Assembly (NCBI GenBank): GCA_002707495.1
Contig: PAMZ01000018.1
Coordinates: 186,001 to 250,000 of the forward strand
Source: Halobacteriovoraceae bacterium
GTDB lineage: Bacteria > Bdellovibrionota > Bacteriovoracia > Bacteriovoracales > Bacteriovoracaceae
Direction: 5' to 3'
DNA: 64,000 nucleotides
Both the position numbers and the translations under genes were made by a program. The notes under the pieces were generated by a model. It had not been told where the DNA came from, did no database searches, and was given only the letters and a program-made list of their open reading frames with translations. Position 1 is the first letter of the stretch. Each line of letters starts with the position of its first letter. This document shows positions 1-15,184 of the stretch, in pieces.

Positions 1-674
1 AATTATTGGCCAGTGTGGAGGCTAAAGGACTGAAAGGTCTGGCATTTACCTATAGTGGAGGTGAGCAGGCAATAGTTAGTGTTAACAGACCCGTTAAGGC
101 TATCAATGACTTTAAAGACATACGATACAGAGGGTTTTCAGACTGGGATTGTCTAATGGCAAAGATAAATGAGGCATCATGTCAGATAGGAAGCCGTCTG
201 ATAGATGATCGAAGATTAACTTTGGAGCAACAAATTTCTGCCGACATGGTGGATGCTGGAGATGCTACCGTCAGGGATGCTGTCGAAGCTTTTTACAATT
301 CTCACCAGAGAAAGGCTAAGTATTTGACTTTGACCGGCCATAAATTTCTAATGACCGCCCTTGTCTTTAATAAAGAAAAATTTAATTCTTTTCCCAAGGA
401 TATCCAGCAGATCATCCTAACTTCTGCTAGAGAAGTAGCAAGATTTGAGCGAAAATCCATAATCGATGATGAGAGAAAGTTTAAAAGAAAAATTGAGAGA
501 GATAACAAGTTCCAAGTAATCGAAATGACCTACCAAGAACGATCGAAGCTAAAAGACTCTTTAATCGAGGTTGAGAAAAAAGTTTTATCTCAGATCAAAG
601 ACTCCAAGAGAGCTGCATACCTCGTGGACGCAATTAAGAATCTTGCGAAAGAAGAGGATATCGCTACGAATTAA
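1..674 (+). CDS. TRAP transporter solute-binding protein, DctP family (3' part)
   Basis: This is the C-terminal part of a periplasmic substrate-binding protein of a TRAP (DctP-type) transporter; the reading frame is open to the left edge of the window, so the signal peptide and N-terminal lobe lie outside. The visible 222 residues show the hallmark of the family: the segment around residues 28-41 that reads VKAINDFKDIRYRG, typical of the conserved 'sl.DlkGlkiR' stretch, followed by the long helical C-terminal half rich in Lys and Glu. The substrate cannot be told from this fragment. The permease genes (DctQ/DctM) are not in the window. The gene ends 11 bases inside the convergent arginase-like gene. 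Confidence 0.75.
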   Translation, partial: LLASVEAKGLKGLAFTYSGGEQAIVSVNRPVKAINDFKDIRYRGFSDWDCLMAKINEASCQIGSRLIDDRRLTLEQQISADMVDAGDATVRDAVEAFYNSHQRKAKYLTLTGHKFLMTALVFNKEKFNSFPKDIQQIILTSAREVARFERKSIIDDERKFKRKIERDNKFQVIEMTYQERSKLKDSLIEVEKKVLSQIKDSKRAAYLVDAIKNLAKEEDIATN

Positions 675-1533
675 GTTTTTTACCCTCAAGGTTTGTACCA
701 ATCAAGAGTGTAAGATCTCTTAGAATAAAACTGGCCAATGAGACGCTAACTTCTGAAGTATCCAAACTAGGTGCTAACTCCACAAGGTCAGCTCCTACAA
801 TGTTCTTTTCGATTAATATTTCCACAATAGACTTGAAGTCATTGTAGCTTGCTCCTCCAGGGCAAGGTGCTCCCGTACCAGGAAGACACGAGGGATCAAA
901 AAAGTCACAGTCAACTGTTAAGTAGACAGGCCTGTCGCCTGGAATTGTTCTCAGCTTTTCCAATAGCTCCTCTAAGGTTTCAGACAAAGAGCCTAAATGA
1001 TTCATCTTCTGGTGCTCTGAAGGCTTAACTTGCCGAACACCGTACTGAATAAGTTCATGTTTTTCGCCGAACATATTAAGTATGTTTTGCATAATAGACC
1101 CATGGGAGTTTGTATCTCCGAGAAAATCTGCAATCATATCTGCATGAGCGTCTAGTTGAATAACAACTAGATCTTCATAGCTTTTCAAGTACTTCTCAAC
1201 AGAATATCTAATCACGGAGTGGTCACCTCCAATAGTTATCAAAGACTGTTTGTTCAAGTCTAATTTGTCTATTTGAGTACCTGCTGAGTTTACGATTTCT
1301 ATATGGCTTTTAAAAAAGCCTTTCTCTAACTCTAAACTAAATAAATTAAAATCGCTTACAGACCTTAGCCTCAGGTGATCATATGGACTTATCTTTTCAG
1401 AATACTGGGAAATGGCTTGGGGGGCACCGCTAGCTCCCTTTCCTATAGAAGTCGCACCATCGAATGGTAAACTCAAGAAATAAACTCCCGACTCTTGAGG
1501 CCACTTAACAATTTTTGAATTGAAATACTTCAC
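664..1533 (-). CDS. Arginase/agmatinase-family ureohydrolase with intact metal site
   Basis: A 289-residue ureohydrolase-fold enzyme expected to hydrolyse a guanidino group to an amine plus urea using two Mn ions. All ligands of the family are visible: H105 in GGDHS, D128, H130 and D132 in DAHAD, D208 and D210 in VDCDFFDP, and E252 in the VELAP motif near the end, so it should be active. The start is a GTG; no Shine-Dalgarno sequence precedes it, and a plausible extended -10 lies 7 bases upstream, suggesting a leaderless message. It is divergent from the SGNH/radical SAM/oxygenase operon, only 49 bases away. The substrate could be free arginine, agmatine or guanidinobutyrate; given the neighbours, a peptide arginine (as in OspR-type peptide arginases that make ornithine in RiPPs) is an attractive but unproven alternative. 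Confidence 0.85.
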   Translation of the reverse strand: MKYFNSKIVKWPQESGVYFLSLPFDGATSIGKGASGAPQAISQYSEKISPYDHLRLRSVSDFNLFSLELEKGFFKSHIEIVNSAGTQIDKLDLNKQSLITIGGDHSVIRYSVEKYLKSYEDLVVIQLDAHADMIADFLGDTNSHGSIMQNILNMFGEKHELIQYGVRQVKPSEHQKMNHLGSLSETLEELLEKLRTIPGDRPVYLTVDCDFFDPSCLPGTGAPCPGGASYNDFKSIVEILIEKNIVGADLVELAPSLDTSEVSVSLASFILRDLTLLIGTNLEGKKLNS

Positions 1534-1540
1534 ACTTAGT

Positions 1541-1573
1541 AGTTTAGCATCAATAAAGATAGTCTGATAAGAT
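1541..1573. promoter_or_regulatory. Overlapping divergent promoters of the arginase-like and SGNH/radical SAM genes
   Basis: On the plus strand, an extended -10 (TGA-TAAGAT, 1565-1573) ends 9 bases before the ATG at 1583. On the minus strand, TGC-TAAACT (1549-1541) ends 7 bases before the GTG at 1533, with TTATCA (1570-1565) at 18-base spacing as a possible -35. The minus-strand -35 overlaps the plus-strand -10, so the two promoters should compete. No Shine-Dalgarno sequence fits between either -10 and its start codon. Read by eye; not tested. Confidence 0.4.
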
Positions 1574-1582
1574 ATTAGAAAT

Positions 1583-2704
1583 ATGAAACCAAAACAATTT
1601 TATAATTTATTCCGTCAAAGCTGGAAGTCAAAACTATTTAGACTCACTTCTTACCTTTGCTTATCAATAATATGCTTGAGTTTATCTGTCTCGATCTATT
1701 CCATATATGTAAAATCAAAAAAATCTTTAATTTACCATGATGAGGTTATTTATAACAGAGAGTCCTCGAAGATCAAAAAGCGTAGAGAGAAGATCAATGC
1801 TGCGATGGGATGGGGATTTAATTTCTCACAAAGCTGGATTCAAGAAGCGACTAAAGCTGGAGATGTTATCTTTAGAGCTAAAATTACCATTGACGAATTT
1901 GGTAGAAGAATAGTGCCAAACAATACATTGAATCTGAATCAGAGAAAAAAACATCTCATCATTACCGGTGGCTCTTATGTTCTATCTCAAAATGTTGATG
2001 ACCAAGACACATTTACAAATTTGATCGCCGAAGTCTTAGACGATCATCACATATATGTTTATGGTGGTTGGTGGTACTCTCCTGCACATTTTTTAAGACG
2101 CTTTGAAGTAGCACCAATTACACAAGAAATAAAACAAGACTCTGGACTTACACTGGTAGTCTTTAACAAAGCACACTTACTGGGGATTTTAGGTGATTCC
2201 TGTTATCTAGTTCATGAGAATAACTTCCATTCACCAAGCTTTGAAATGAAGAGCAATAAATTGGTTTATGCTGGAAAATGGTCTGAAATATTTGAGAAAA
2301 GATATAGAGTCATGAGAAATTTACCCAATCTCCTTCAAAATATCTACACCGAGTATTGCTGGAACTTTCTTGAATCAAAATATCACAACTTGGATGAAAT
2401 CTTGGGAGAATACACAAGGGAGCAAATGAATCTCATATTTAATGTGTTTAAAGCGTATAAGAATATTTTAGAAAAGCAGCTCCCAAAAACAAAAGTCATT
2501 TTCCTCAATATGAATTGGGGAAAAAAGCCTCCTTCAAAGTTCATTAACGCTGCTAAAGAATATCAGCTTCAAGTTAAATCCATTGAGATGGACAATCTGA
2601 ACACTGACCTAAATCCGGATACTTGGCATTTGAATTCTGAAGGGGAAAAGGGACTAGCCAAACTTATTTTACCAGTTATTTATGATAGTATGGATGCTGA
2701 ATGA
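1583..2704 (+). CDS. SGNH/GDSL-like hydrolase with N-terminal membrane anchor
   Basis: A 373-residue protein with a basic N-terminus and one hydrophobic segment (about residues 21-42), so probably anchored in the inner membrane with the rest outside the cytoplasm. The SGNH signature is seen as ITGGSYVLSQNVDDQDTF (nucleophile candidate S131, in the GGS variant of the GDS block) and a C-terminal D-T-W-H (D346, H349) followed by NSEGEKGLA, the usual catalytic dyad region. Such proteins act as esterases or acyl-/acetyltransferases in glycan and natural-product pathways; the actual substrate is unknown. It heads the operon that continues with the radical SAM gene, overlapping it by 4 bases (ATGA). 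A GDSL-type protein also accompanies the carbamoyltransferase in saxitoxin clusters, which is a loose parallel only. Confidence 0.65.
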   Translation: MKPKQFYNLFRQSWKSKLFRLTSYLCLSIICLSLSVSIYSIYVKSKKSLIYHDEVIYNRESSKIKKRREKINAAMGWGFNFSQSWIQEATKAGDVIFRAKITIDEFGRRIVPNNTLNLNQRKKHLIITGGSYVLSQNVDDQDTFTNLIAEVLDDHHIYVYGGWWYSPAHFLRRFEVAPITQEIKQDSGLTLVVFNKAHLLGILGDSCYLVHENNFHSPSFEMKSNKLVYAGKWSEIFEKRYRVMRNLPNLLQNIYTEYCWNFLESKYHNLDEILGEYTREQMNLIFNVFKAYKNILEKQLPKTKVIFLNMNWGKKPPSKFINAAKEYQLQVKSIEMDNLNTDLNPDTWHLNSEGEKGLAKLILPVIYDSMDAE

Positions 2705-4185
2705 AGGTGGTATTTTTCTCTGATATTCCTGCTGATATTGGTGTATCTCGTTACGCAGGTGCCCATCGCCTGGCTTCAGAATTAAGGGCAAATGACATAG
2801 ATTGCAAAGTCATTGACGGCTTCTGCCTTTTTGAAGAACACGAACTAGAGAAAATAGTCGATAGATTTATATCAAGTGAAACTGTTGCCCTAGCAATAAG
2901 TTCAACTTTTTTGACTCCCCAAGCAGAAGAGGTTGTTTATTCAGATGCAAAATCAATTTCGAAAAGAAAAAATTTTCATCTCGCTTCAATACTAGAGGAT
3001 TTAATATCAAAATGCCGAGAAAGAAGCCCATCAATCAAGGTTGTAGTGGGAGGAGCTAATGGACTACGACTGAGCGATCATATCCCTTACGACTACTGCA
3101 TTCAAGGTCAAGGGGAAGTATCATTTGTAAAACTGGTCAAGCATTTGCTAAGCAATCCGTCTAAAACATTTAATGGTTCATTCGAACGAAAAAAAATTAG
3201 GCTTATAGAAAGTAATAAGAATTTTCCCTTTAATGGCTTTAATAACTCTAAAATTAATTGGCAAAAAACAGACTTTATACAATCCCAAGAATGGCTTCCG
3301 ATAGAAGTTGCAAGAGGATGTGTCTACAGATGTTCGTTTTGCGACTTTCAACTCAATGGAAAATCGATATATGACTATTTAAAAGATCCTGAAGTCTTAA
3401 AAGAAGAGCTAATTTATAATTATGAAACATTCGGTGTAACCAATTACTCTATATCAGATGATCTATATAACGACTCACTTCATAAAGTAGAACGATATCA
3501 TAAAGTATTTACATCACTCCCATTTAATATTTCTTGGATTTCATTTGGAAGATTAGACCTCTTTCATCGGTATCCCCAGATGGCTGACCTTCTAAAAGAA
3601 TCAGGCCTAAAACATATGTTTTTCGGTATTGAAACATTGGATGCAAAAGCGGGACGTAAAGTAGGAAAAGGATTAGGTGAGAAACGAATTAAAGAGACAC
3701 TTGAAAAGCTAAAATTGAAATGGGGTAATAGTGTTCACTCCCAAGGAAGTTTTATCATTGGTCTACCAGGAGAGAGTAAAAAATCGATGGTCAACACCTT
3801 CAACTGGCTAATGAGCGGAAATTCCGGTTTAGATGCTTTTTACTTCGAGCCACTTTGGATAGAATACGACAAAAAAGATGAATCGCCTTCAAACATGAGC
3901 CAAAGTCCCGAGAAGTATGGCTACGAAATTGATGACTCGACCGGAAATTGGAACAATGGAATTATGGACTTTCAAGAGGCCAAGAAATTATCAAATTATT
4001 TTATTCAAGCATCTAGGTCAGTATCGAAAGTAGGATCCTTTGAAATGCCCCCTCTCTGCTCTATAGGTTACGACAAAGAAACTGTGATGAGTTCAACAAC
4101 TAAGAGTATTGTTGGTAGGACTGACTATCTTGAAAAAAAGAAAAAGTGGAAAGATCGATACCTAGAGGAATTGTTGAAAGCATGA
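2701..4185 (+). CDS. B12-binding-domain radical SAM protein
   Basis: A 494-residue enzyme with an N-terminal cobalamin-binding-like Rossmann domain (about residues 1-150, including the VVVGGANGLRL stretch and the YCIQGQGE motif that closes such domains) followed by a radical SAM core. The [4Fe-4S] cysteines are C207, C211 and C214 in ARGCVYRCSFCDF; later landmarks are the SDDLYND strand, the FFGIETLD strand and FIIGLPGE near residue 355. Members of this broad class do C-methylations, thioether or ring chemistry, often on RiPP precursors, but many are uncharacterised, and the class alone does not prove peptide substrates. It is translationally coupled (ATGA overlaps) to the SGNH gene before it and to the first oxygenase gene after it. 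Confidence 0.85.
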   Translation: MKVVFFSDIPADIGVSRYAGAHRLASELRANDIDCKVIDGFCLFEEHELEKIVDRFISSETVALAISSTFLTPQAEEVVYSDAKSISKRKNFHLASILEDLISKCRERSPSIKVVVGGANGLRLSDHIPYDYCIQGQGEVSFVKLVKHLLSNPSKTFNGSFERKKIRLIESNKNFPFNGFNNSKINWQKTDFIQSQEWLPIEVARGCVYRCSFCDFQLNGKSIYDYLKDPEVLKEELIYNYETFGVTNYSISDDLYNDSLHKVERYHKVFTSLPFNISWISFGRLDLFHRYPQMADLLKESGLKHMFFGIETLDAKAGRKVGKGLGEKRIKETLEKLKLKWGNSVHSQGSFIIGLPGESKKSMVNTFNWLMSGNSGLDAFYFEPLWIEYDKKDESPSNMSQSPEKYGYEIDDSTGNWNNGIMDFQEAKKLSNYFIQASRSVSKVGSFEMPPLCSIGYDKETVMSSTTKSIVGRTDYLEKKKKWKDRYLEELLKA

Positions 4186-4943
4186 ACATTAAAAAACTTC
4201 CCTCCAGCAGAAGAGGCTTTCCCAAAAAAATTAATTCAGGCGCAAAGCATTTCCCCGCTACGAAAAAGTGGAATTGTTCATACTTCCTCGAGAGCATGAA
4301 ATCCGAAAAAGTTCGGGCCCTCCCTTTTTCAAAAATTGAAAATAGGACACCCTTATTTAATCAAATTCATATTTTGAAAAATCAATCTCAAATAGAAATA
4401 GAGTCTATATTACTGCACCGGTATGGGGAATATGTCATACGTGAAGAAGTTCAAATCCTGAAGAACAACCAAACGCTTTTGGAAGATATAAACTACACAA
4501 GACCTTATGGCTCCCTAGAGAATTTAGACTTTTTTCACTCTTTTTTCTTTGCGCCCCCGGGATATACTGTAGAACCTCATACTGATGACTTAAGTCTCTA
4601 CCTATTCCAAATAAAAGGTAAAAAAGTTGTTAGAGTTGTAGCGCCAGAGTTTAATAACTCAGTTTACCGGCTATCGCCTCAGACGACACTGGAAATTAGT
4701 ATGAAGGAAGGTCTAACCTTAGATCAAGCTCTCCTTTTGAGCAAACAATCCAAAAACTGGTCTATTTCAGAGGCAAATTTCTTTAATATAGACCTTAGTA
4801 GATTTGATAAAATGAAAAATGTAGATATATACGAAACTGAATTGAACGGAGGTGACATTCTTGAAATTCCCCAGGGTTGGTGGCACTCAACTTTTACAGA
4901 TGAAGAATCCTTTGCATTCAATGTTGCAAAAAACAAGTTGTGA
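4182..4943 (+). CDS. JmjC/cupin-8-like Fe(II)/2-oxoglutarate oxygenase, copy 1
   Basis: A 253-residue protein of the JmjC-type cupin fold. The iron triad H-x-D...H is visible as H133 and D135 in EPHTDD and H235 in IPQGWWHST; LFQIKGKKVVRVV is the strand that usually carries a Lys for 2-oxoglutarate. Enzymes of this type hydroxylate side chains of peptides or proteins. The start chosen is the ATG at 4182, whose ATGA overlaps the radical SAM stop; a longer frame upstream would run into that gene. It is followed 3 bases later by a paralogue with the same layout, so the pair may act on different residues of one substrate or as a heterodimer. Confidence 0.75.
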   Translation: MNIKKLPSSRRGFPKKINSGAKHFPATKKWNCSYFLESMKSEKVRALPFSKIENRTPLFNQIHILKNQSQIEIESILLHRYGEYVIREEVQILKNNQTLLEDINYTRPYGSLENLDFFHSFFFAPPGYTVEPHTDDLSLYLFQIKGKKVVRVVAPEFNNSVYRLSPQTTLEISMKEGLTLDQALLLSKQSKNWSISEANFFNIDLSRFDKMKNVDIYETELNGGDILEIPQGWWHSTFTDEESFAFNVAKNKL

Positions 4944-4946
4944 GTT

Positions 4947-5753
4947 ATGAACGCTTTTAGCCCAGTAACGATCCTTTCCAAGCAATCTGATTTTGTCATT
5001 GGCACTCCTGTTTTATTAGAAGGGATTAAAAAAGATTGCGCAGCAGTGCAGAAATGGAATGAAGATTACTTTATATCTCACTATGGGGAAACAGTGATTC
5101 GAGCAGATAGATACTCAAGTGATCAGAATATACCTTATTTCTTACAGTCCTATATCAATTCTAACAAGGTAGCCTTTAAAGAAGTCTTTAACAGAGATTT
5201 GAGTTTGTCTCTCATGGAAAATATCGACTTTTTAAAGGCTAACCCTGAACTATTAAATGATATCGATTTTTTCAAACCTTTAGGAAAAAAAGAGAACCTC
5301 GATGCATTTTGCTCATTTTGGTATGCTCCGTCAGGAAAAATCGTAGACCTTCATACGGATGATGCAGATTTATTTTTACTGCAAGTTAGTGGTGAAAAGG
5401 TCGTGAGACTTATACCTCCAAGCCAAACCGACTTCATTTACCAACAAGACAAAACTGTTTTACTGAAACTATGCTTTGGCTTAGGGCTAAATCAAGAAGA
5501 GCTTGAAGAGGCTGCAAATGAACTTACCAATTCACAATTTTCACATGTTTCGTGTTTTAACCCAGACTTTAAAAAATATCCTCTCTACCAACATGTTTCA
5601 GGTTTGGAAGCAAATTTAAGCCCAGGAGATGTATTGTATATTCCTAAAGGTTGGTGGCATGCGACTAAGGCTAAAGAAAGCTCTTTTGGTTTAAATACTG
5701 TTGTGATAACTCCTAACATTAGCTGGAAGGATATTTTCACTCATCATGGTTGA
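4947..5753 (+). CDS. JmjC/cupin-8-like Fe(II)/2-oxoglutarate oxygenase, copy 2
   Basis: A 268-residue paralogue of the preceding gene. H136 and D138 in DLHTDDAD and H238 in IPKGWWHAT form the iron site; LLQVSGEKVVRLI is the matching 2-oxoglutarate strand. Like copy 1 it has a region between the two halves of the iron site (about 165-215) that is predicted to be helical. Outside the motifs the two copies differ strongly, pointing to an old duplication rather than a recent one. The 3' end overlaps the start of the glycosyltransferase gene by 8 bases. Confidence 0.75.
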   Translation: MNAFSPVTILSKQSDFVIGTPVLLEGIKKDCAAVQKWNEDYFISHYGETVIRADRYSSDQNIPYFLQSYINSNKVAFKEVFNRDLSLSLMENIDFLKANPELLNDIDFFKPLGKKENLDAFCSFWYAPSGKIVDLHTDDADLFLLQVSGEKVVRLIPPSQTDFIYQQDKTVLLKLCFGLGLNQEELEEAANELTNSQFSHVSCFNPDFKKYPLYQHVSGLEANLSPGDVLYIPKGWWHATKAKESSFGLNTVVITPNISWKDIFTHHG

Positions 5754-6834
5754 TCAAATTTACAAGATACCCACTAAGTTACAAGAGTGGAGAAGTTTAA
5801 ATACAATAATTGAAAACCTCTCTTCTACCTATCAAGAAGAGTATCAAATGTCTGAATCGGTTAACGATGCAGGCATTTTACTTAGCATATGCAATACCCC
5901 TGAAGAAATTAAAGCTTACTTAAAGCAATTTAAAGATGAGCGAGTCATAATCCATCTGCATGGGGACTTTATCGAGAACTTAGTAGAATGGAACTCTCTT
6001 TTTTTGAAATTTCCTGAGAAGAAGTTTCAACTTTTAGCCTCTTCCCACTCTCAGGCTAAGATTATAGAAAAAATACTAAAAACTAAATGCAGAGTCTGTA
6101 CCCCTATTCCCTATACATTATCCTCTAAAGAACTTAGTAGCAGAACAAAACAGAAATTTGTTTATTATGGACGCTTAAGTGAAAACAAAAATATTGATTG
6201 GCTTATTAAGTTATTTAAAAAGTTTCAATCGATCACAAATAGACAAGATCGACTCGATATTTACGGCATACCAGATAATATAAGCTGTTTTGTAAAAAAT
6301 ATGTCTCGACTGCAAAGACCGCTAATTGAAGAAATTATAGACTTAGCGAAAAATGAGCCCAATATCAATATCTATCCCACCAATCACTCTTCTAGAGTAC
6401 TTGAAAACTATGATCATTTTATAAGTTTAAGTACCTACCATGATGATGACTTTGGAGTTGGAATCATAGAAGCTATTAACACAGGGCTAAACCCAATACT
6501 AAGCAACTGGGGGGGGTTACGAGATATAAACCGGAACTTAAACAAAGACGGAATCGACCTCAAACTTGTCGGAGATCTCGTCACCCCCATTACAAGTAGC
6601 TTTTATAAGAATTTATTAAAAAACTTAGATTTAAATATCAAAAACAGCATTATGGTAGAAAGTAAAATACCCAACTTAGCATTTGAAAGTTTTTTAGAAG
6701 TTACTTCAATCGAAACCAGGTACTTAAACTTCTCGCGAGCTTTATCCGAAGGCAAGCCGATCAACTACAGCGTAAACCACCATGAGACCTATAAGGATAT
6801 ATATAATGGGCCATATATCAGTCCAGAAGATTAA
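5746..6834 (+). CDS. GT4-like glycosyltransferase
   Basis: A 362-residue cytoplasmic glycosyltransferase of GT-B fold. The C-terminal nucleotide-sugar-binding half is recognisable: FVYYGRLSENKNIDWLI (about residues 139-155) and the EX7E-like donor motif in DFGVGIIEAINTGLNPI (about 243-259), followed by WGGLRD. The donor sugar and acceptor are unknown. It is the last gene of the plus-strand block that starts at 1583 and converges with the second arginase-like gene, their ends overlapping by 17 bases. Its presence means the cluster's product, or an envelope glycan it decorates, probably carries a sugar. Confidence 0.75.
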   Translation: MVDQIYKIPTKLQEWRSLNTIIENLSSTYQEEYQMSESVNDAGILLSICNTPEEIKAYLKQFKDERVIIHLHGDFIENLVEWNSLFLKFPEKKFQLLASSHSQAKIIEKILKTKCRVCTPIPYTLSSKELSSRTKQKFVYYGRLSENKNIDWLIKLFKKFQSITNRQDRLDIYGIPDNISCFVKNMSRLQRPLIEEIIDLAKNEPNINIYPTNHSSRVLENYDHFISLSTYHDDDFGVGIIEAINTGLNPILSNWGGLRDINRNLNKDGIDLKLVGDLVTPITSSFYKNLLKNLDLNIKNSIMVESKIPNLAFESFLEVTSIETRYLNFSRALSEGKPINYSVNHHETYKDIYNGPYISPED

Positions 6835-7666
6835 AGATTAATTCTCTTAGGGCTCCAGACGTTGTTGCAACGGACAAGCTATTTCTATCTTTATTAGGGT
6901 TTAAGCCTACGATATCAGCAGCGACAACATTGGATAATTTGAAAAATTCCAATATTTTTTTAAGCTCTGTAAACTTAAATCCATCCGGGATCGGATCTGA
7001 GACAGCTGGCGCAATACTGGGATCAAAAACATCTATGTTTAAGGAAAGATAAATCGGAAGGCTTTTGTTTTGTACGAGGTAATCTCTCAACTCACTCACA
7101 CTCATCAATCTTTTTGATTTTATTATTCGCTTATGGCCAGCTCTAGAGAAAGATCTTAACCCTACCTGCCATACAGATATTCCCATCGATAGCTCACGCA
7201 AAGCTGAGTCATTCGCATCCTGAGATTCAACACTTTCACCCTCAAAACTGTGGGCACTGAGATGAATAACCTCTAAGTCAGGTACAGAGCTAGCGATAAA
7301 CCTAGCAGTAAACTTGGTAACAAGTTGATTCCCCCCTAAGAAAACAATTTTCTGAGACTGCCAATTATAATTGGTGAAAGTTGATCTTAAACTAAAATCT
7401 ATTGATTCCCCGACATCTTCAAGGGAGCCAGCTGAAGAAAAATTTAGGTTCCCTAAATCATATATACTTTCAATATCATCTAAAATTTCACGATAATGCA
7501 TGGAGTAGGTTTCGTTAATTCTTGAGTATAATCTAAGAGCCGCTGGTGCGAACATTTCGCCCTTATCACCGCCCTTAGAGCCATGATCAAGTGGAACACC
7601 TAAAATATAAATCCCCTCACTTGTTGTTGACCGAGCGGGACTGGTAAAAGATAGACATCTACTCAT
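6818..7666 (-). CDS. Arginase-fold protein with degenerate metal site (probable pseudo-enzyme)
   Basis: A 282-residue protein clearly of the ureohydrolase fold: VPLDHGSKGGDKGEMFAPAALR at the start, YLSLNIDVFDPSIAP in the middle and AADIVGLNP near the end all align with family landmarks. Compared with the intact copy at 664-1533, the Mn ligands are mostly gone: GGDHS has become GGNQL (Q114), DAHAD has become SAHSF (only H139 kept), the first Asp of DxD has become N210 (D212 kept) and the Glu of VEL has become G254. It is therefore unlikely to be an arginase and may be a partner or regulatory subunit, or bind the substrate without hydrolysis. It is transcribed alone, divergent from the Hint gene, with a probably leaderless ATG. 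Confidence 0.75.
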   Translation of the reverse strand: MSRCLSFTSPARSTTSEGIYILGVPLDHGSKGGDKGEMFAPAALRLYSRINETYSMHYREILDDIESIYDLGNLNFSSAGSLEDVGESIDFSLRSTFTNYNWQSQKIVFLGGNQLVTKFTARFIASSVPDLEVIHLSAHSFEGESVESQDANDSALRELSMGISVWQVGLRSFSRAGHKRIIKSKRLMSVSELRDYLVQNKSLPIYLSLNIDVFDPSIAPAVSDPIPDGFKFTELKKILEFFKLSNVVAADIVGLNPNKDRNSLSVATTSGALRELIFNLLD

Positions 7667-7672
7667 TTTGAA

Positions 7673-7751
7673 TTAATACCATGATTTTAAACACATTTAC
7701 ATTAGTTAGTAATTCAGTTAAGTTGATCCAAACGGGACCTAATGTTATATT
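7673..7751. promoter_or_regulatory. Divergent promoters between the pseudo-arginase and Hint genes
   Basis: Plus strand: TTGATC (7723-7728), 17-base spacer, then TATATT (7746-7751) preceded by an extended -10 TG at 7743-7744. The predicted start of transcription falls on or next to the ATG at 7757. Minus strand: TGG-TATTAA (7681-7673), 6 bases before the ATG at 7666, with a weak TGTAAA 17 bases further up. Neither start codon has a Shine-Dalgarno sequence, so both messages look leaderless. Confidence 0.45.
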
Positions 7752-7756
7752 AAAGT

Positions 7757-8275
7757 ATGGAAATTGAAGATTCAGACAAAGAAGTAATAGCCGAGTACGG
7801 CTCTTTTGGAAGCATAGAAAGAGTGAATCTTGATAAGATTTTCAATGAATCAGTACTACTTGCAGCGGCTTGCTTTCATCCCTCAACAGAAATCGTAATG
7901 TCTGATGGTACTCTAAGAAAAATTCAACACATTCGTAGCGGAGATCGAGTTAAAGGTGGAGGAATGGTCGTCATGACTCTAGAATCAATTTCCAATGACT
8001 TATACCTCTATGACAATACGGTCGTTTCTGGTAACCACGCTGTACTAGAAGGGGAGCGCTTCACTTTTGTAAAGAGCTCCATTAAGGGTAAATCTCTTCC
8101 AGGAGTTTCACATGTAGTGAGCATTGGAACTGAGAATCATACGCTTGAAACTTCAGACGGGACTGTGTTTTCTGATTACTATATGAGTGATAAATTCCCA
8201 ACTCTCATGAACACTGAGCTACTTAAGTTGCTAAATACTGAAAAATCAAAATTACATTCAAAGACCAAAGGTTGA
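7757..8275 (+). CDS. Small Hint-domain protein (intein/Hedgehog-type autoprocessing) with 38-residue N-terminal peptide
   Basis: A 172-residue protein. From C39 on it reads as a Hint domain: block A ACFHPSTEIVMSDGTLRKI with a leading Cys, GDRVKGGG, block B NTVVSGNHAVLEGE with H94, and the late motif GTENHTLETSDGTVFSDYY (H128, D140, Y141) typical of bacterial Hint domains. There is no homing endonuclease and no C-terminal His-Asn/Cys junction, so splicing is not expected; an N-S acyl shift and cleavage before C39, as in Hedgehog, is possible. Residues 1-38 are acidic at first, then MEIEDSDKEV...NESVLLAAA, resembling a leader or cargo peptide. ATG 7757 sits where transcription should begin; an in-frame GTG at 7823 with GGAAG 10 bases upstream is an alternative start that would leave a 16-residue N-peptide. 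Confidence 0.7.
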   Translation: MEIEDSDKEVIAEYGSFGSIERVNLDKIFNESVLLAAACFHPSTEIVMSDGTLRKIQHIRSGDRVKGGGMVVMTLESISNDLYLYDNTVVSGNHAVLEGERFTFVKSSIKGKSLPGVSHVVSIGTENHTLETSDGTVFSDYYMSDKFPTLMNTELLKLLNTEKSKLHSKTKG

Positions 8276-8277
8276 AA

Positions 8278-8544
8278 ATGAGGCTAAGTAGCGACTGCCT
8301 TTTGCATATGTCTGATGGGATCGCCGTTATCTATGACCTAAATGATGATCAGTTTATCTATCGCCTGCAAGGAGTTGCTGGGAAAATCATCGAAAAGCTA
8401 TCTAAAGACTCGATTGAGCGAGAACAACTTATTGAGCTTGCCATAGAACTCAACCCAGAAAATGTAGAAAGAAGCCAGGCGTCGGAATTTATCGACAGCT
8501 TTATCAAAGATCTAAAACAGATTAAACTTCTAGAAGAAGCTTAA
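8278..8544 (+). CDS. PqqD-like peptide chaperone (RiPP recognition element)
   Basis: An 88-residue protein of the PqqD fold: early strands that include IAVIYDLNDDQFIYRL (the usual 'd...g.~~l~~~~g~~~~L' pattern), the helix following GVAGKIIEKL, and a helical C-terminal part with an FIKDLKQIKLLEEA tail. PqqD proteins bind leader peptides of ribosomal precursors and present them to modifying enzymes; similar domains also occur in other clusters, where the partner is not a peptide. The ATG at 8278 is preferred because AAAGG lies 6 bases upstream; a TTG two codons earlier overlaps the Hint stop. Adjacent to the Hint gene, so the Hint N-peptide is the first candidate ligand. Confidence 0.7.
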   Translation: MRLSSDCLLHMSDGIAVIYDLNDDQFIYRLQGVAGKIIEKLSKDSIEREQLIELAIELNPENVERSQASEFIDSFIKDLKQIKLLEEA

Positions 8545-8563
8545 CTCGAATCGGAGGCTTTTG

Positions 8564-9265
8564 ATGATCAGCCAATTCTCTGAAAGGATACTTGCCTTTT
8601 TTGCAGTCCGATTGCTTTGGAAAAGTAATTCAAAAAAGGGTGAAGCCATACAATCATTTCAAGCAACCGAGGCAGATGGAGTATGGCATCTATTCAGGGG
8701 AATAAAGAAAGAACAAGATCCAAGAACCCTCTCTCATTTGTTTTCTCACATAATCGAAGAACAAGCACATGCAGACATGTTCGCTAAAACATTCAGACAG
8801 GAAATTGATCAACCCTTTCAACACAAGACAGTAGAAAGGGCAGATATTTACGACAATAATGAGCCTTCTTGGAAACATTTAGTCTATGTACATATTGGAG
8901 AAATTGAAGCTGTTTCACGATTCAGTAAACTCATAGACTACCTACCTAACTCCCCCCTAAAATCTACATTAACAGACATTTTAAAAGACGAAGAAGGACA
9001 CGTAAATTTAACTATGGATAGTGTGATTGGTTTGAACGTACCGGCTAAAAAAGTAAAAAAAGAACTTAGAAAGGTCAAAATTAGGCGATTGAAGGAAGCT
9101 TGGCTGCGGACTGGAGCTCGAGGAGTTGATCAAATTGCCAATTTAATTCTATCTATTATTTACTATTTAGTTTTAGGCCCATGTTTATTTATTTTCGCTC
9201 GCAAAAAAATTAAGGCTGAAAGAATCACCTACGACAACAATCATATGAAGGCTGCTGACATATGA
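8564..9265 (+). CDS. Ferritin-like diiron protein
   Basis: A 233-residue four-helix-bundle protein of the ferritin-like/COQ7-type superfamily. Two E-x-x-H pairs are visible (E66-H69 in IIEEQAHADMF and E143-H146 in KDEEGHVNL), with further acidic ligands at about E36 and E113/E115 in HIGEIEAV, enough for a complete carboxylate-bridged diiron site. A hydrophobic stretch at about residues 198-216 would tie it to the membrane, as in COQ7-like hydroxylases. Likely role: an oxygenase or desaturase acting on the pathway product; the substrate is unknown. Start chosen at ATG 8564 with GGAGG (8553-8557) 6 bases upstream. The stop overlaps the carbamoyltransferase start (ATGA). Confidence 0.7.
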   Translation: MISQFSERILAFFAVRLLWKSNSKKGEAIQSFQATEADGVWHLFRGIKKEQDPRTLSHLFSHIIEEQAHADMFAKTFRQEIDQPFQHKTVERADIYDNNEPSWKHLVYVHIGEIEAVSRFSKLIDYLPNSPLKSTLTDILKDEEGHVNLTMDSVIGLNVPAKKVKKELRKVKIRRLKEAWLRTGARGVDQIANLILSIIYYLVLGPCLFIFARKKIKAERITYDNNHMKAADI

Positions 9266-11076
9266 TCGTGCTAGGATTGTCTTTTGGCTATCATGACTCT
9301 ACTGTCTCACTAATAATCGATGGCCAACTTAAAAGCGTCATATCTGAAGAAAGACTCTCTCTTCAAAAGCATGATTACAACTTTCCTAAATTTGCCTTAG
9401 AAGAATGTTTAGAATCTCAAGGAATCAAAACCTCTGATATTGACCATATAGTCTACCACGAAGATCCCCACAATAAATTTTCAAGAGTTCTAACTAGCTC
9501 GCTTTATCATTTTCCTTTTTCGAGAAGAGAGTTTGTGAATACAGTAAAGGCATGGCTAGGGAAAAAACTATGGTCTGTTGGAAAAATTTCTCAAGAGCTT
9601 GATATAGATATTAATAAAATTTCTTATTTAAATCACCATTACAGTCATGCCTTTCAAGCGTTTTTAGGCTCAGGCTACTCCTCCTCAAGTATACTAATTG
9701 TTGACGCTGTTGGTGACTGGACAAGTACCGCTATTTATCAAGGCAGCTGGGTCAATGGGAAGCCGAAGGTCCAACTTGTTAAAGAAATCTCATTTCCTAA
9801 TTCAATTGGCTTAACCTACTCCGCCGTTACTGCTTATCTAGGCTTCATACCTAATGATAGTGAATGCAGTACCATGGCATTAGCAGCGTTTGGCGAACCA
9901 AAGTATACTCAATCCGCACTCAAAGTAATTAGCAATGACAGAGACTCAATATACAAAGTCGATCAAAGCTACTTTCATTTTTTGGATTTCTACAAGGGCG
10001 CTATTACTCGTAAATTTGAGGAGTTATTTGGCAATAAGAAAGAGTCTAGTGAAAGCTATTTATTTGACTCACTAGAAACTAAAAGTAATATTCCGCCTGA
10101 GCAGCAACGATTTGCTGATATAGCTAGTAGTTTCCAAACTGTCATACAAGATCATTTAATTGGTCTGGCAAGACAAACGAAAAAATTGACTGATGAAAAT
10201 AATCTTTGTTACGCAGGTGGTGTTGCCTTAAACTGTGTCGCAAACCAGGCCCTCTATGACGCAAAAATTTTCGACAATATCTTCATCCCTCCTGATCCGG
10301 GAGATGGAGGAACAGCAGTCGGTATTGGATTATACAAAGGATCCATGCTTGAGGAAGCTCCCATTTCTCCTAGTGCCTTAAAGTATAATCCCTACCAGGG
10401 TAGTTCCTACCAGGAAGACAAGCTCCTGACGATGATAGAAGAACTAAAATATAAAAACTTTAAAGACTATCAAAAAAATGACTCTAGGGTCTGTCGTGAT
10501 TGGGAGATAAAAAAATTTAAAGATGATGAAGAGCTCGTTGATATAATCTCAAATGAACTTATGCATGATCAAGTAGTTGGCTTCTACCAAGGAAGATTTG
10601 AATTAGGACCTAGAGCTCTTGGCAATAGATCTATTCTATTTAAGCCAGGAGATATCAGCTTGGCCAGAAGGGTTAGCAGGAGTGTAAAAGAGAGAGCCAG
10701 TTTTAGACCGTATGCTCTATCAATGACCCCAGAGACTGCAAAGAGAGTTTTAAAAACAGATCATCCATTAGAGATTTATAGATGGATGCAAGTGTCCTGT
10801 AGAGTAAACCAGAGTTACCTTGATAAAGTTCGAGGTGGTATCCACATAGATGAAACGACCAGGCCTCAAGTGTGTTTCGAATATGACAATCCACTATTTT
10901 TTGAGCTACTCAAATGTTTCGGATCAAAATATGGAGTCGCAGCCTTAGTAAACACAAGCTTTAATCCAAAAGGTCTTCCCATCGTCACTAATCCTTTCGA
11001 GGCGTTAGCAATGTTTAGTCGAACAGATATGAATTCTTTGGTTATTAACAAAACCCTCATTAAGAAGGTCTATTAA
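9262..11076 (+). CDS. O-carbamoyltransferase (NodU/CmcH/TobZ family)
   Basis: A 604-residue enzyme that transfers a carbamoyl group from carbamoyl phosphate, through carbamoyl-adenylate, to a hydroxyl. The N-terminal Kae1-like domain begins VLGLSFGYHDSTVSLI and contains ISEERLSLQKHDYNFP, NHHYSHAFQAF (metal-binding histidines) and ILIVDAVGDWTSTAIY. The C-terminal YrdC-like domain has GRFELGPRALGNRSI (about residues 444-458), RASFRPYALSM and LVNTSFNPKGLPI. Length and motifs match the family, so it should be active. It is embedded between the diiron gene and the DUF5989-like gene, both coupled by overlapping codons, the same company such enzymes keep in natural-product clusters. Confidence 0.93.
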   Translation: MIVLGLSFGYHDSTVSLIIDGQLKSVISEERLSLQKHDYNFPKFALEECLESQGIKTSDIDHIVYHEDPHNKFSRVLTSSLYHFPFSRREFVNTVKAWLGKKLWSVGKISQELDIDINKISYLNHHYSHAFQAFLGSGYSSSSILIVDAVGDWTSTAIYQGSWVNGKPKVQLVKEISFPNSIGLTYSAVTAYLGFIPNDSECSTMALAAFGEPKYTQSALKVISNDRDSIYKVDQSYFHFLDFYKGAITRKFEELFGNKKESSESYLFDSLETKSNIPPEQQRFADIASSFQTVIQDHLIGLARQTKKLTDENNLCYAGGVALNCVANQALYDAKIFDNIFIPPDPGDGGTAVGIGLYKGSMLEEAPISPSALKYNPYQGSSYQEDKLLTMIEELKYKNFKDYQKNDSRVCRDWEIKKFKDDEELVDIISNELMHDQVVGFYQGRFELGPRALGNRSILFKPGDISLARRVSRSVKERASFRPYALSMTPETAKRVLKTDHPLEIYRWMQVSCRVNQSYLDKVRGGIHIDETTRPQVCFEYDNPLFFELLKCFGSKYGVAALVNTSFNPKGLPIVTNPFEALAMFSRTDMNSLVINKTLIKKVY

Positions 11077-11258
11077 TGAAATTTCTTAGGCAACTGAAGT
11101 ATATACTTTTTACTATTAGTAGAACAACAGCCTCGTTTAAAGAAAATAAACTCACTGTTTTTATTCCCTTTCTATATATTTTATTTGCCACTGCTGGAAT
11201 ACTCGTTTTAATTAATTTTTTAACACCGGTTATCCCTTTCGTTTACTCACTTATTTAA
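11076..11258 (+). CDS. DUF5989-like small membrane protein associated with carbamoyltransferases
   Basis: A 60-residue protein with a basic N-terminal half and one transmembrane segment (about residues 30-50), ending LTPVIPFVYSLI. The ending 'aPFiYtLf' and the position directly after a carbamoyltransferase are characteristic of the DUF5989 family, which is related in kind to the small SxtK-type protein of saxitoxin clusters. Function is not known; it may hold the carbamoyltransferase at the membrane. Its ATG overlaps the carbamoyltransferase stop by one base, and its stop overlaps the next start by one base. Confidence 0.65.
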   Translation: MKFLRQLKYILFTISRTTASFKENKLTVFIPFLYILFATAGILVLINFLTPVIPFVYSLI

Positions 11259-12184
11259 TGAAGACCTATACTGCAGCTTTAAAGGAATGGACCACGGCAA
11301 GATCTGACTGGAGTTTTGAGTTAATTCTAAATCCAGATAGATTGGAAGAATGCTTAAGCCCTGCTTTCAGAAGCCATCTTAAAGCTGTCCCTTTTCATGT
11401 GGAATATTTTTTGCCAGAAATCTACTTAACTCAAAATAGACCATATATAGTTCTCACTCATCTAGAATCTAGAACAAAGATCTTATTCTATCGCTTCAAA
11501 AATAAGCTATACGGTATTGTTTATATCTCAGACTATAAATTGAGTATGGATGTTTGTCTAAATTTGATTAAAGATTTCCCGAGAAAAATAGAAAAGGAAA
11601 TCTCACTAGTCACCTCTATACCAATAGAAGAGAATTTTTCAAATATCGATTATACTTGCGATAAAAGATATGATTACTGGGTTCAGAACAATATCGATTT
11701 AGATTTTTCTGATACATTAAAAAATGCCTATCAATATGCAACTTCAAAAGGCTTTAAAACAGAAAAAATATCTCCGCAATCAACTTTCATTCTCCAAGCA
11801 ATAGAAAGTTTTTCTGCATCAAAAGGATTTTCTTCTTTTATAGAACCAAAACTTCTTTCTCATTATAAAACGAACGAAAGCTATCGCTTTGAAGCCTTTG
11901 CAACATCTCATCGTGATCGCCCAGAAAGAGCAATATCCATTTATTTAGCGACCCCTCAAAACATGATACAATTATGGGCTGTTGATAATAGACATCAATA
12001 TCAATTCGGTAAACTAAGCCTTTTGCGTCACAATCTTCAATACATTTTACAAAATGAAGTCCCCGAGAGAAATCTAAAAATTTTCAGTTTGGGACATGAA
12101 AAAAGAGTTGATGGAACGATCATAGTTGAAAAACAAGAGATCAAGGGCGCCTATCAATCTTATTATGTCTATAAATTTTTCTAA
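11258..12184 (+). CDS. Protein of unknown family, last gene of the Hint/carbamoyltransferase operon
   Basis: A 308-residue protein that I do not recognise. No signal peptide or transmembrane segment is evident, so it is probably cytoplasmic. It shows alternating strand and helix character, with aromatic-rich stretches such as FHVEYFLPEIYLTQ (about 46-59) and SYYVYKFF at the very end; the middle and C-terminal half (AISIYLATPQNMIQLWAVDN, LGHEKRVDGTI) would be compatible with a GNAT-like acyltransferase fold, but no acetyl-CoA loop is clear. It is coupled to the DUF5989-like gene and ends 9 bases before a convergent membrane-protein gene, so it is the end of the transcription unit and most likely acts in the same pathway. 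Confidence 0.5.
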   Translation: MKTYTAALKEWTTARSDWSFELILNPDRLEECLSPAFRSHLKAVPFHVEYFLPEIYLTQNRPYIVLTHLESRTKILFYRFKNKLYGIVYISDYKLSMDVCLNLIKDFPRKIEKEISLVTSIPIEENFSNIDYTCDKRYDYWVQNNIDLDFSDTLKNAYQYATSKGFKTEKISPQSTFILQAIESFSASKGFSSFIEPKLLSHYKTNESYRFEAFATSHRDRPERAISIYLATPQNMIQLWAVDNRHQYQFGKLSLLRHNLQYILQNEVPERNLKIFSLGHEKRVDGTIIVEKQEIKGAYQSYYVYKFF

Positions 12185-12193
12185 AAAGATCAA

Positions 12194-13237
12194 TTACTCG
12201 AAAAGCCTCTTAGAAAGTCCAGTGGATTTTCTCCATAAAAAGCCATCAATTATACAATGGACGATATTCGGGCAACTTATGGCTGAAGCAAGTAGAGCCT
12301 TCCAAAAAAGAGGTAGTTCGTAAAACTTTTGGATCGAAGCAAAAGGTGCATAGAAAATAAAGAAAAACAAAATTAGTAGACCATAAAGGTAGGCTGAGCG
12401 ACTTAATCGAAAGTATTTTCCTTGGATAAGACTTGAGTCTCCAAGTCTCTCGGTTTTAAAAACGATGAAGAAATAAGGCACTCCGTGAGCGAACGTTAAA
12501 AGCCACGATGACAAAAGAAAATATTGGGGATCTGTAATAAAATAGAGAGCAATATACCAGCCAAAAAATCCATTAAAAAACACTAGAATTTTAGTCAAAT
12601 TTACTTGTCTATATTTCCACCAATGAAATGAGTTAATAATCCAAAACAGGATGATGACAATTAAAGAAAAAGACATCGCAAATCTTGCCAGTATGTCTGG
12701 AACTAGAAATGAATCTCCAGGTCGAATCCAATATCCGTTTTCAGAATGTCTAAGTAACCATAAAGTTGGAGAGATTGTGATGCTATATATTGTCAAGAGA
12801 TCTAGCCTCTCTAACCATTTCGAATGGTAACTATCTAACCTAGTCGCGATCTTCATCCAGCCATATTCTTGCCTAATAACATGGAAGATAGCTGTTTGAG
12901 CAATCAGAATAAAAAACCAATTTTCTTTTCCCCCTATGATAAACGCAAAAGATGCCAGGAAAATCAATATTGGGGTCATTATTAATATACGTTTTAATTT
13001 TTTAAAAACCTCTTGATCTGCATATGAAATGAGAAAAGTCGCGTATACATGAGTAATCTCTTGTAGTGATTTAATTATGATAATTAAAATCCATGGAAGC
13101 TGTTTTTGATTATGAAAACGATAGTCAGTTAAATGGCTGAAAAGAAAGAAGAAGATCCCAACAAAAAACCAGCTTGAAAACGCAAACAAATCTTTTTTAC
13201 GACTAAATATATGTCTGCTTAAAATTAACGAACTCAC
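12194..13237 (-). CDS. Polytopic membrane protein of unknown function
   Basis: A 347-residue integral membrane protein with about eight to ten hydrophobic helices spread along its whole length. Histidines and acidic residues inside or at the ends of helices (for example LQEITHVYATFLI near residue 58, QTAIFHVIRQEYGW near 130, TFAHGVPYFF near 262) could make a metal or catalytic site within the membrane, but the family is not recognised. It lies 3' to 3' with the unknown 308-residue gene, with only 9 bases between the stops. It precedes no other gene of its strand closely, so its link to the neighbouring cluster is by position only. Confidence 0.55.
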   Translation of the reverse strand: MSSLILSRHIFSRKKDLFAFSSWFFVGIFFFLFSHLTDYRFHNQKQLPWILIIIIKSLQEITHVYATFLISYADQEVFKKLKRILIMTPILIFLASFAFIIGGKENWFFILIAQTAIFHVIRQEYGWMKIATRLDSYHSKWLERLDLLTIYSITISPTLWLLRHSENGYWIRPGDSFLVPDILARFAMSFSLIVIILFWIINSFHWWKYRQVNLTKILVFFNGFFGWYIALYFITDPQYFLLSSWLLTFAHGVPYFFIVFKTERLGDSSLIQGKYFRLSRSAYLYGLLILFFFIFYAPFASIQKFYELPLFWKALLASAISCPNIVHCIIDGFLWRKSTGLSKRLFE

Positions 13238-13293
13238 ATTAATATTATAGCAAGAATTTAGAGAAAAAACTTAAAGACTGGCCTAAAATTAAA

Positions 13294-14826: not shown

Positions 14827-15184
14827 TGGTACCTTTTGACACAGTAAAAGCATACAATGCAACCCCCAAAGTAGCTCCAATGAAATTCCAACCTACATCA
14901 TACAGGCTATCAATACGTGTGGGAGTGAAGTACTGAATGAGTTCAGTAATTGCTCCAATGGAAGTATAAAAAATTATCGATATAACTGATCTTCTGATTG
15001 TTCTTGGATAAAGGTCCTCTAATGCCTTTGCCAATATGAATGACTGAGGGGCATATTGAATAATATGCCTAAGCTTAAATGAAGTAGTCTGGGGCACATT
15101 CTTAACCCAACCTACTGTTTCCCTGATTTCACTCCAACTCATTATAGACAAATATAAGTCTAAAATTATAAATCCAATGGTCAA
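14819..15184 (-). CDS. VanZ-like small membrane protein
   Basis: A 121-residue protein with about three hydrophobic helices. The sequence TELIQYFTPTRIDSLYDVGWNFIGATLG (about residues 78-106, read in two parts: ELIQYFTPTRIDSLYDV and NFIGATLG) is the core signature of VanZ-like proteins ('E..Q.f.pgR..s..Dv..N..Ga.lG'). VanZ-like proteins are linked to teicoplanin resistance and to envelope or polysaccharide functions in many bacteria; here the role is unknown. The stop overlaps the start of the large membrane protein gene, so the two form a unit. Confidence 0.7.
   Translation of the reverse strand: MTIGFIILDLYLSIMSWSEIRETVGWVKNVPQTTSFKLRHIIQYAPQSFILAKALEDLYPRTIRRSVISIIFYTSIGAITELIQYFTPTRIDSLYDVGWNFIGATLGVALYAFTVSKGTNE

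Follow-up and report, generated by a model that had tools for sequence, protein, structure and literature searches.

A rare, conserved gene cluster of Bdellovibrionota that most likely makes a ribosomal peptide from a Hint-fused precursor

The DNA analyzed here (the window; 64,000 nucleotides, positions 186,001 to 250,000 of contig PAMZ01000018.1 from a Halobacteriovoraceae bacterium, or G000:C22:186001-250000 in our numbering) carries at 664-12184 most of a compact cluster of enzyme genes grouped around a putative precursor protein with a Hint domain. A sequence-only reading had placed there two arginases, a B12-type radical SAM enzyme, two JmjC oxygenases, Hint, PqqD-like and diiron proteins, a carbamoyltransferase, and a glycosyltransferase, in twelve genes nearly all joined by overlaps. 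When families were assigned with Pfam and NCBIfam and by motifs, the named families were found at this place. The gene count rises to 13 open reading frames (ORFs) once an SGNH-like gene and a 60-aa ORF are counted, and genes overlap at 8 of the 12 junctions; the description as nearly all overlapping holds better for the same-strand junctions (7 of 9, with the jmj1 start set at 4182). The features are listed below, where G028 is a second genome with the cluster and the gene at 1583..2704 bears a putative family name given from its motif.

3..674, + strand: 3' part of a gene for a DctP-type TRAP solute-binding protein, a cluster member entering from upstream (PF03480; 34% reciprocal best hit in the G028 cluster)
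664..1533, − strand: argA, agmatinase-type ureohydrolase with metal ligand motifs intact (PF00491, 3.4e-50)
1583..2704, + strand: presumed SGNH-like protein with an N-terminal hydrophobic segment, GGSY at residue 129 and DTWH at 346 (no Pfam match over cut-off)
2701..4185, + strand: radical SAM enzyme, distant PhpK/B12-type relative (PF04055, 7.4e-16)
3319..3342, + strand: CxxxCxxC motif of the radical SAM protein, residues 207-214
4182..4943 (start chosen in the analysis), + strand: jmj1, JmjC/Cupin_8 2-oxoglutarate oxygenase, HTD...H triad intact (PF13621, 1.4e-13; alignment of five cluster JmjC proteins)
4947..5753, + strand: jmj2, JmjC/Cupin_8 2-oxoglutarate oxygenase (PF13621, 3.8e-30)
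5746..6834, + strand: glycosyltransferase GT1 (PF00534, 9.9e-12; 35% reciprocal best hit in the G028 cluster)
6818..7666, − strand: argB, degenerate arginase-fold protein that has lost several metal ligands, predicted pseudoenzyme (PF00491)
7757..8275, + strand: Hint-fused putative precursor (leader-like stretch, conserved block, Hint domain)
7790..7822, + strand: putative leader or recognition-element-binding stretch, residues 12-22, [D/E][YF]GxFGx[IL]E (pattern in 5/5 members)
7841..7870, + strand: putative core FN(E/D)SVLLAAA, residues 29-38 (9/10 residues invariant in five members)
7871..7873, + strand: Hint block A Cys39, predicted cleavage nucleophile (invariant in 6/6)
8027..8038, + strand: Hint block B SGNH, residues 91-94 (invariant in 6/6)
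8272..8544, + strand: predicted stand-alone recognition element, PqqD-like, lasso-B1-type
8561..9265, + strand: ferritin-like protein (predicted diiron), C-terminal hydrophobic segment (ExxH at 67 and 144)
9262..11076, + strand: O-carbamoyltransferase, TobZ/GdmN/NodU family (PF02543 and PF16861; 60% in G028)
11076..11258, + strand: 60-aa DUF5989-like membrane protein (PF19451, E 0.07, below cut-off; 63% in G028, same place)
11258..12184, + strand: 308-aa protein, no assigned family (27% reciprocal best hit at the same place in G028)

The cluster runs about 6 kb further upstream of the window, whose first letters are the tail of the upstream DctP gene. That upstream stretch (L022, C22:168001-187000) holds genes for a methyltransferase, a second glycosyltransferase (GT2), an amidohydrolase, a 188-aa protein with a sub-cut-off Peptidase_M26_N match (18.3 versus a cut-off of 27.7 bits), a homologue of deoxyhypusine synthase (DHS), and DctP. 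With bounds taken from the comparison of G000 and G028, these 6 genes and the 13 window ORFs make up a cluster of 19 genes. Among the 19, we recognized no nonribosomal peptide synthetase (NRPS) or polyketide synthase (PKS) domains. The 308-aa protein at the downstream end gave neither a Pfam match nor a convincing PDB match.

When the genome collection was searched with a profile built from four Hint homologues, a single additional locus emerged, L019, on a contig of an uncultured Oligoflexia metagenome-assembled genome. Oligoflexia lies within Bdellovibrionota, and L019 belongs to G028 of the phylum search, a genome of the same family as G000 and of another genus. The gene order around Hint is the same in G028: an opposite-strand ureohydrolase, then Hint, the recognition protein, the diiron protein, the carbamoyltransferase, the DUF5989-like protein, and a 312-aa protein. 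A comparison between 82 kb from G000 and 56 kb from G028 (ORFs ≥ 55 aa, E ≤ 1e-6) gave reciprocal best hits for 16 of the 19 cluster genes, all within 20.5 kb of G028, with 15 pairs at 27 to 63% identity and the radical SAM pair at 25%. The SGNH-like pair (34%) keeps GGSY in G028 and does not keep the DxxH motif. jmj1 has a non-reciprocal match in the G028 cluster, the 188-aa protein has none, and the reciprocal best hit of argA lies 28 kb past the cluster's end. Apart from the 16 pairs, the two stretches share only this argA pair, an ORF on the antisense strand inside the DHS gene, and a single weak pair that lies 49 kb into the window. The G028 cluster also has extra genes, for a metallo-beta-lactamase-fold protein, a third JmjC protein, and two further radical SAM proteins. 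The cluster is a real conserved unit, because a second genus has the same genes in other surroundings. The sequence-only reading had named as grounds for its own rejection that these genes never co-occur elsewhere or that PqqD and Hint belong to separate systems; we found the set together and the two genes side by side, in two genomes only.

The cluster is also rare. The JmjC and DHS searches covered the 368 genomes of the phylum, and Hint and the diiron protein were sought outside the phylum as well. A search of 5.8 billion proteins gave four Hint members and then, with the profile (7996 candidates scored), five close members and one distant one, the window's own included; within the phylum, Hint occurs in 2/368 genomes at 1e-5. 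The diiron search of the same 5.8 billion proteins gave three at E ≤ 1e-6, again counting our own, and the G028 protein is 59% identical. The jmj2 family was found in 2/368 genomes at E ≤ 1e-15, and each of its five copies lies in one of the two clusters. The radical SAM family is more widespread (12/368 genomes at E 1e-40, the window's own included), and we rejected it as a marker of related clusters: queried with the 13 window proteins and 16 of L019, 12 stretches of at most 20 kb around such genes, from 9 of the 11 other genomes, held no other cluster gene at 1e-8, the exception being one distant ureohydrolase in G162, with G209 and G243 seen only at short default loci. A scan of the genome collection with the window radical SAM protein gave no match, and a tblastn search of Hint against PLSDB for plasmid carriage gave none either. 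A role as a defense system was likewise rejected, as PADLOC, run on 9 of the 13 proteins (all except jmj1, GT1, argB, and the 60-aa ORF), returned only the radical SAM protein, at 43.4 bits to one model.

At the center of the cluster lies the Hint-fused ORF. Its block A (Cys39-Phe-His-Pro, followed by DG) aligns with the first Cys of the VMA intein at E 0.04, and Cys39 and the block B SGNH ([T/S]xxH) are invariant in 6/6 aligned Hint proteins. The Hint, PqqD, and diiron families named from sequence all fall below Pfam cut-offs in the window's own proteins, while P0002, a homologue of the Hint ORF with 75% identity, has a precomputed PF05203 Hint domain. Where inteins end in His-Asn followed by Cys, Ser, or Thr, this family reads Ser-Asp-Tyr, which makes splicing unlikely and would leave N-terminal cleavage of the Hedgehog type as the expected chemistry. 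Like the Hedgehog Hog/Hint, bacterial intein-like, and Vint domains, the ORF has a block A Cys, a block B S/TxxH, and no Asn at the intein end position, and as in Hedgehog an N-terminal piece is predicted to be released. It differs from these domains in that this piece is very short, that it sits in a cluster with a recognition element, and that only about 30 residues follow the last Hint block, so that a sterol-recognition region would have little space.

The N-terminal flank itself is strongly conserved. The five close members agree at 60 of 172 positions, and the densest conserved stretch of 14 residues is 29-42 around Cys39, with 13 of 14 invariant (0.0004 of shuffles reach that). Residues 13-21 keep [D/E][YF]GxFGx[IL]E, Ser32 is invariant in 5/5, and no Arg is invariant in the precursor. 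To our knowledge, inteins normally do not constrain their N-flank, and since this flank is conserved and stands beside the gene of a recognition element, we argue that it comprises a leader plus a core. The distant Hint protein P0009 (JGI source, 270 aa) has a different N-terminal region, followed by the same CFHPST and VSGNH motifs: blocks A and B are kept, and 3 of 10 flank residues match in the alignment. A search for a viral source of P0009 gave 10 pattern matches in viral contigs and no relatives.

The Hint ORF overlaps the gene of the PqqD-like protein in both genomes. The structural model of this protein (pLDDT, the model's confidence score, 90.1) has lasso B1 chains from leader complexes as its top six Foldseek matches, and the protein is predicted to have the fold of a leader-binding recognition element of ribosomally synthesized and post-translationally modified peptides (RiPPs), the RiPP recognition element (RRE). 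The likeness was found by fold comparison only, the PDB sequence search having given no convincing relative. RiPP pathways have a dedicated precursor-recognition element, and the cluster has one by predicted fold; the sequence-only view that this protein points to a ribosomal peptide is borne out to that extent. Among known systems the nearest are lasso systems with discrete B1 proteins (TbiB1, FusB1), compared with which the cluster shows no recognized B2 protease or lasso cyclase among its 19 genes and carries a Hint domain on its precursor. Lasso leaders canonically bear the motif [Y/W]xxP (PMC13381572). A lasso peptide was rejected, as there is no asparagine-synthetase or transglutaminase-type Pfam match in the 19 proteins and no such motif in the leader.

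Among the predicted tailoring enzymes, the JmjC HxD...H triad is kept in 5/5 cluster JmjC proteins, and jmj2 has JMJD5 as its nearest solved relative (4.1e-24) and resembles FIH too. The carbamoyltransferase matches the PDB carbamoyltransferase 7xb6 at 4e-55 and resembles TobZ and GdmN, enzymes that carbamoylate hydroxyls of small molecules. For the radical SAM protein, the best NCBIfam relative is the PhpK family TIGR04479 (88.8 bits versus a cut-off of 600), and there is no Pfam B12-binding match at E 0.1. Of the three G028 radical SAM proteins, one has a B12-binding domain that exceeds the cut-off and the other two have sub-cut-off matches; the two scanned against NCBIfam models score best, below cut-off, on the RiPP C-methyltransferase model TIGR03975. 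The ferritin-like protein has two ExxH motifs and no convincing PDB sequence relative.

Only one half of the proposed arginase pair has kept its metal ligand motifs. argA, whose best PDB match is the putative agmatinase 3lhl and which scores 151.2 bits on the TIGR01230 agmatinase model (cut-off 174.3), keeps GGDH, DAHAD, and DCDFFDP; the binuclear metal ligand motifs (GGDH, DAHxD, DxDxxDP) are intact in the G028 gene as well. In argB, GGDH has become GGNQ, DAHxD has become SAHS, and the first Asp of DxDxxDP is Asn, so that several metal ligands are gone. argB is predicted to be a degenerate orthologue of the intact G028 cluster agmatinase, because an eight-row tree pairs the two as sisters (98/98, on a long branch) and places argA on a separate line. 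Inactive paralogues act as regulatory partners in some polyamine enzymes, and argB might be such a partner of argA.

The arginase had been proposed to form ornithine within the peptide. Known peptide arginases belong to PF12640 (PMC12703449). A ureohydrolase in a putative RiPP cluster does recall the landornamide-type enzymes such as OspR (PF12640); the cluster ureohydrolases, however, are PF00491 proteins of agmatinase type, and because of this difference of family the ornithine role is unsupported. Conversion of Arg to ornithine was rejected on these grounds and because the precursor has no invariant Arg and the partner gene, the DHS homologue, points to polyamine chemistry.

That homologue (PF01916, 2.2e-40) has WGK with the catalytic Lys at 289. 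The cluster pair is 63% identical, at most 47% identical to others among the matches listed, and forms its own clade (100/100) in a nine-row tree, within a family found in 227/368 phylum genomes at E 1e-60. It scores best on the homospermidine biosynthesis model (120.6 versus a cut-off of 450), with all equivalog models below cut-off. In G028 the genes for the agmatinase, the DHS homologue, GT2, and a JmjC protein follow one another, each overlapping the next; in G000 DctP alone separates the DHS gene from argA. A Thermus DHS homologue couples two agmatines to caldomycin, which a ureohydrolase converts to homospermidine (PMC10981699), and SpeY homologues turn putrescine into homospermidine (PMC9992855). 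The cluster resembles caldomycin synthase CdmS with the ureohydrolase SpeB, and the homospermidine synthase SpeY, in having a catalytic-Lys DHS homologue next to or near an agmatinase-type ureohydrolase, while it differs in that its DHS forms a clade apart and lies, in both genera, in a peptide-type cluster, with a second DHS copy elsewhere in G000. The agmatinase and DHS genes are best read as a polyamine module within the cluster. The second G000 copy lies in L037 (G000:C8:24001-44000) at 9609-11493, followed by a gene that is nitrilase-like by eye, an arrangement in keeping with an ordinary homospermidine route.

Taken together, these results describe a rare, conserved cluster whose most likely function is RiPP biosynthesis from a Hint-fused precursor. 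We hypothesize that the RRE holds the leader, that enzymes decorate the core, and that the Hint domain releases the peptide through a thioester, possibly onto a polyamine; as a whole we advance this tentatively, a little short of even confidence, and we infer that all the cluster enzymes act on one product. Residues of about 12-22 would be the leader, held by the stand-alone recognition protein, and residues 29-38 the core, on which the JmjC oxygenases and the diiron protein would install hydroxyls and the radical SAM enzyme C-methyl groups, while two glycosyltransferases would attach a sugar and the carbamoyltransferase would carbamoylate it. This assignment of leader and core, jointly with the decoration, seems to us somewhat probable. 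The agmatinase and the DHS homologue would produce a homospermidine-like polyamine from agmatine, and Cys39 would form a thioester at Ala38, to be resolved by a polyamine amine, by water, or by an internal hydroxyl. Release by the polyamine is the boldest and least supported step, and we consider it possible if unlikely. The furthest-reaching form of the hypothesis is rather unlikely: a new RiPP class whose precursor brings its own Hedgehog-like release domain, the thioester of which, once the peptide has been hydroxylated, C-methylated, glycosylated, and carbamoylated, is attacked by a homospermidine-type polyamine made by the cluster to give a ribosomal glycopeptide-polyamine conjugate. Such a product would be a counterpart of the bleomycin architecture, in which a nonribosomal peptide with a hydroxylated residue bears a carbamoylated sugar and a terminal polyamine; the cluster differs in having no recognized NRPS or PKS domain.

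Several observations weigh against this hypothesis. The window Hint domain is below every Pfam and NCBIfam cut-off (best 18.7 versus 32.1 bits), the AlphaFold2 model of the ORF reaches a pLDDT of only 41.6, residues 1-38 gave no PDB sequence match in a library of chains of at least 20 residues, and [Y/W]xxP is absent in 5/5 Hint members. A nearly invariant core among five members is unusual for an antagonistic RiPP, and among the 19 cluster genes no leader protease or exporter was found at Pfam cut-off. The radical SAM enzymes of the two clusters are only 25% identical. On the polyamine side, argA is not orthologous to the G028 cluster agmatinase and argB, which is, has degenerated; the cluster DHS also scores on plain deoxyhypusine synthase models, and the DHS gene of G028 is its only one and could be housekeeping there. 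The link between polyamine and peptide is a conjecture, and the genomic context is known from two genomes only.

The thioester of a Hint-fused RiPP could instead be resolved by water or inside the peptide, where for example Ser32 or a new hydroxyl would close a macrolactone or macrolactam; the polyamine genes would then serve another moiety. Ser32 is invariant, the JmjC enzymes would provide hydroxyls, and inteins are known to allow cyclization, while the overlap of the agmatinase and DHS genes with GT2 and JmjC genes in G028 would be left unexplained; we regard this outcome as unlikely, yet a serious contender. The same enzyme set allows the product to be no peptide at all, that is, a glycosylated, carbamoylated polyamine or amino-sugar for which the Hint, RRE, and diiron trio forms a carrier-peptide system with the peptide as scaffold. 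Two glycosyltransferases, the carbamoyltransferase, the agmatinase, the DHS homologue, the methyltransferase, and the amidohydrolase suit small-molecule work, and a nearly invariant N-flank suits a scaffold that itself stays unvaried; however, jmj2 is closest to JMJD5, which in its best known cases acts on peptides, and attachment to the peptide would be conjecture, so that we think this quite unlikely.

The cluster allows a further interpretation, in which the SGNH-like protein, the glycosyltransferases, the carbamoyltransferase, and the DUF5989-like protein decorate an envelope polymer as a surface glycan or lipid-modification locus and Hint and RRE are a side system. Polysaccharide loci can contain carbamoyltransferases with DUF5989-like and SGNH neighbors, and the open-licence PMC literature gave no paper pairing DUF5989 with a carbamoyltransferase. 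The adjacency of the Hint, RRE, diiron, and carbamoyltransferase genes in both genomes and the lack of any polymerase or flippase at Pfam cut-off among the 19 genes make this interpretation improbable. A chance or decaying neighborhood without common function would accommodate the degenerate argB and is very improbable given that 16 genes have reciprocal best hits in another genus, whereas the compared flanks share next to nothing.

As far as the literature searched goes, the cluster is undescribed. Among the entries listed from the open-licence PMC literature on Hint, RiPP, and precursor clusters, peptide arginases, DHS gene clusters, and Bdellovibrionota clusters, no such pathway was found, and no paper paired a Hint domain with a RiPP or precursor-peptide gene cluster. 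At the level of titles and the starts of abstracts, the DHS gene-cluster papers held no such pathway; entries on Hint or Hedgehog and natural products concerned, from their listing, inteins or Hedgehog only; none on JMJD5, RiPPs, and arginine hydroxylation was relevant among the matches listed; and the searchable portion of PMC12710340 was without the words Hint, intein, or arginase. RiPPs are as a rule released from their precursors by a protease or a cyclase. The Hint-fused precursor, if true, would be a self-releasing RiPP with a reactive C-terminal thioester open to capture by chosen amines, would tie Hedgehog and intein chemistry to natural-product biosynthesis and give a handle for C-terminally conjugated peptides, and would open a little-explored bacterial group for peptide discovery.

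Three membrane-type genes follow the cluster at 12194-15184 of the window and gave no match at E 0.01 in the G028 cluster stretches. A relative of the window radical SAM protein occurs in another kind of locus, L025 (G073:C34:148001-168000), where its neighbors by Pfam are a fatty-acid desaturase, a SET/GNAT fusion, and four oxygenases, two of them TauD and two of Asp/Asn-hydroxylase type. L026 (G161:C15:376001-396000) is alike by eye, with two proteins scanned, one of them without a match, and the two loci possibly represent a further undescribed cluster type. The gene at 12194-13237 has a weak match to a gene near the radical SAM gene of G161, and the VanZ-like gene among the three membrane-type genes is matched in G073 by a 40% homologue, which lies roughly 7 kb away from that genome's radical SAM gene.

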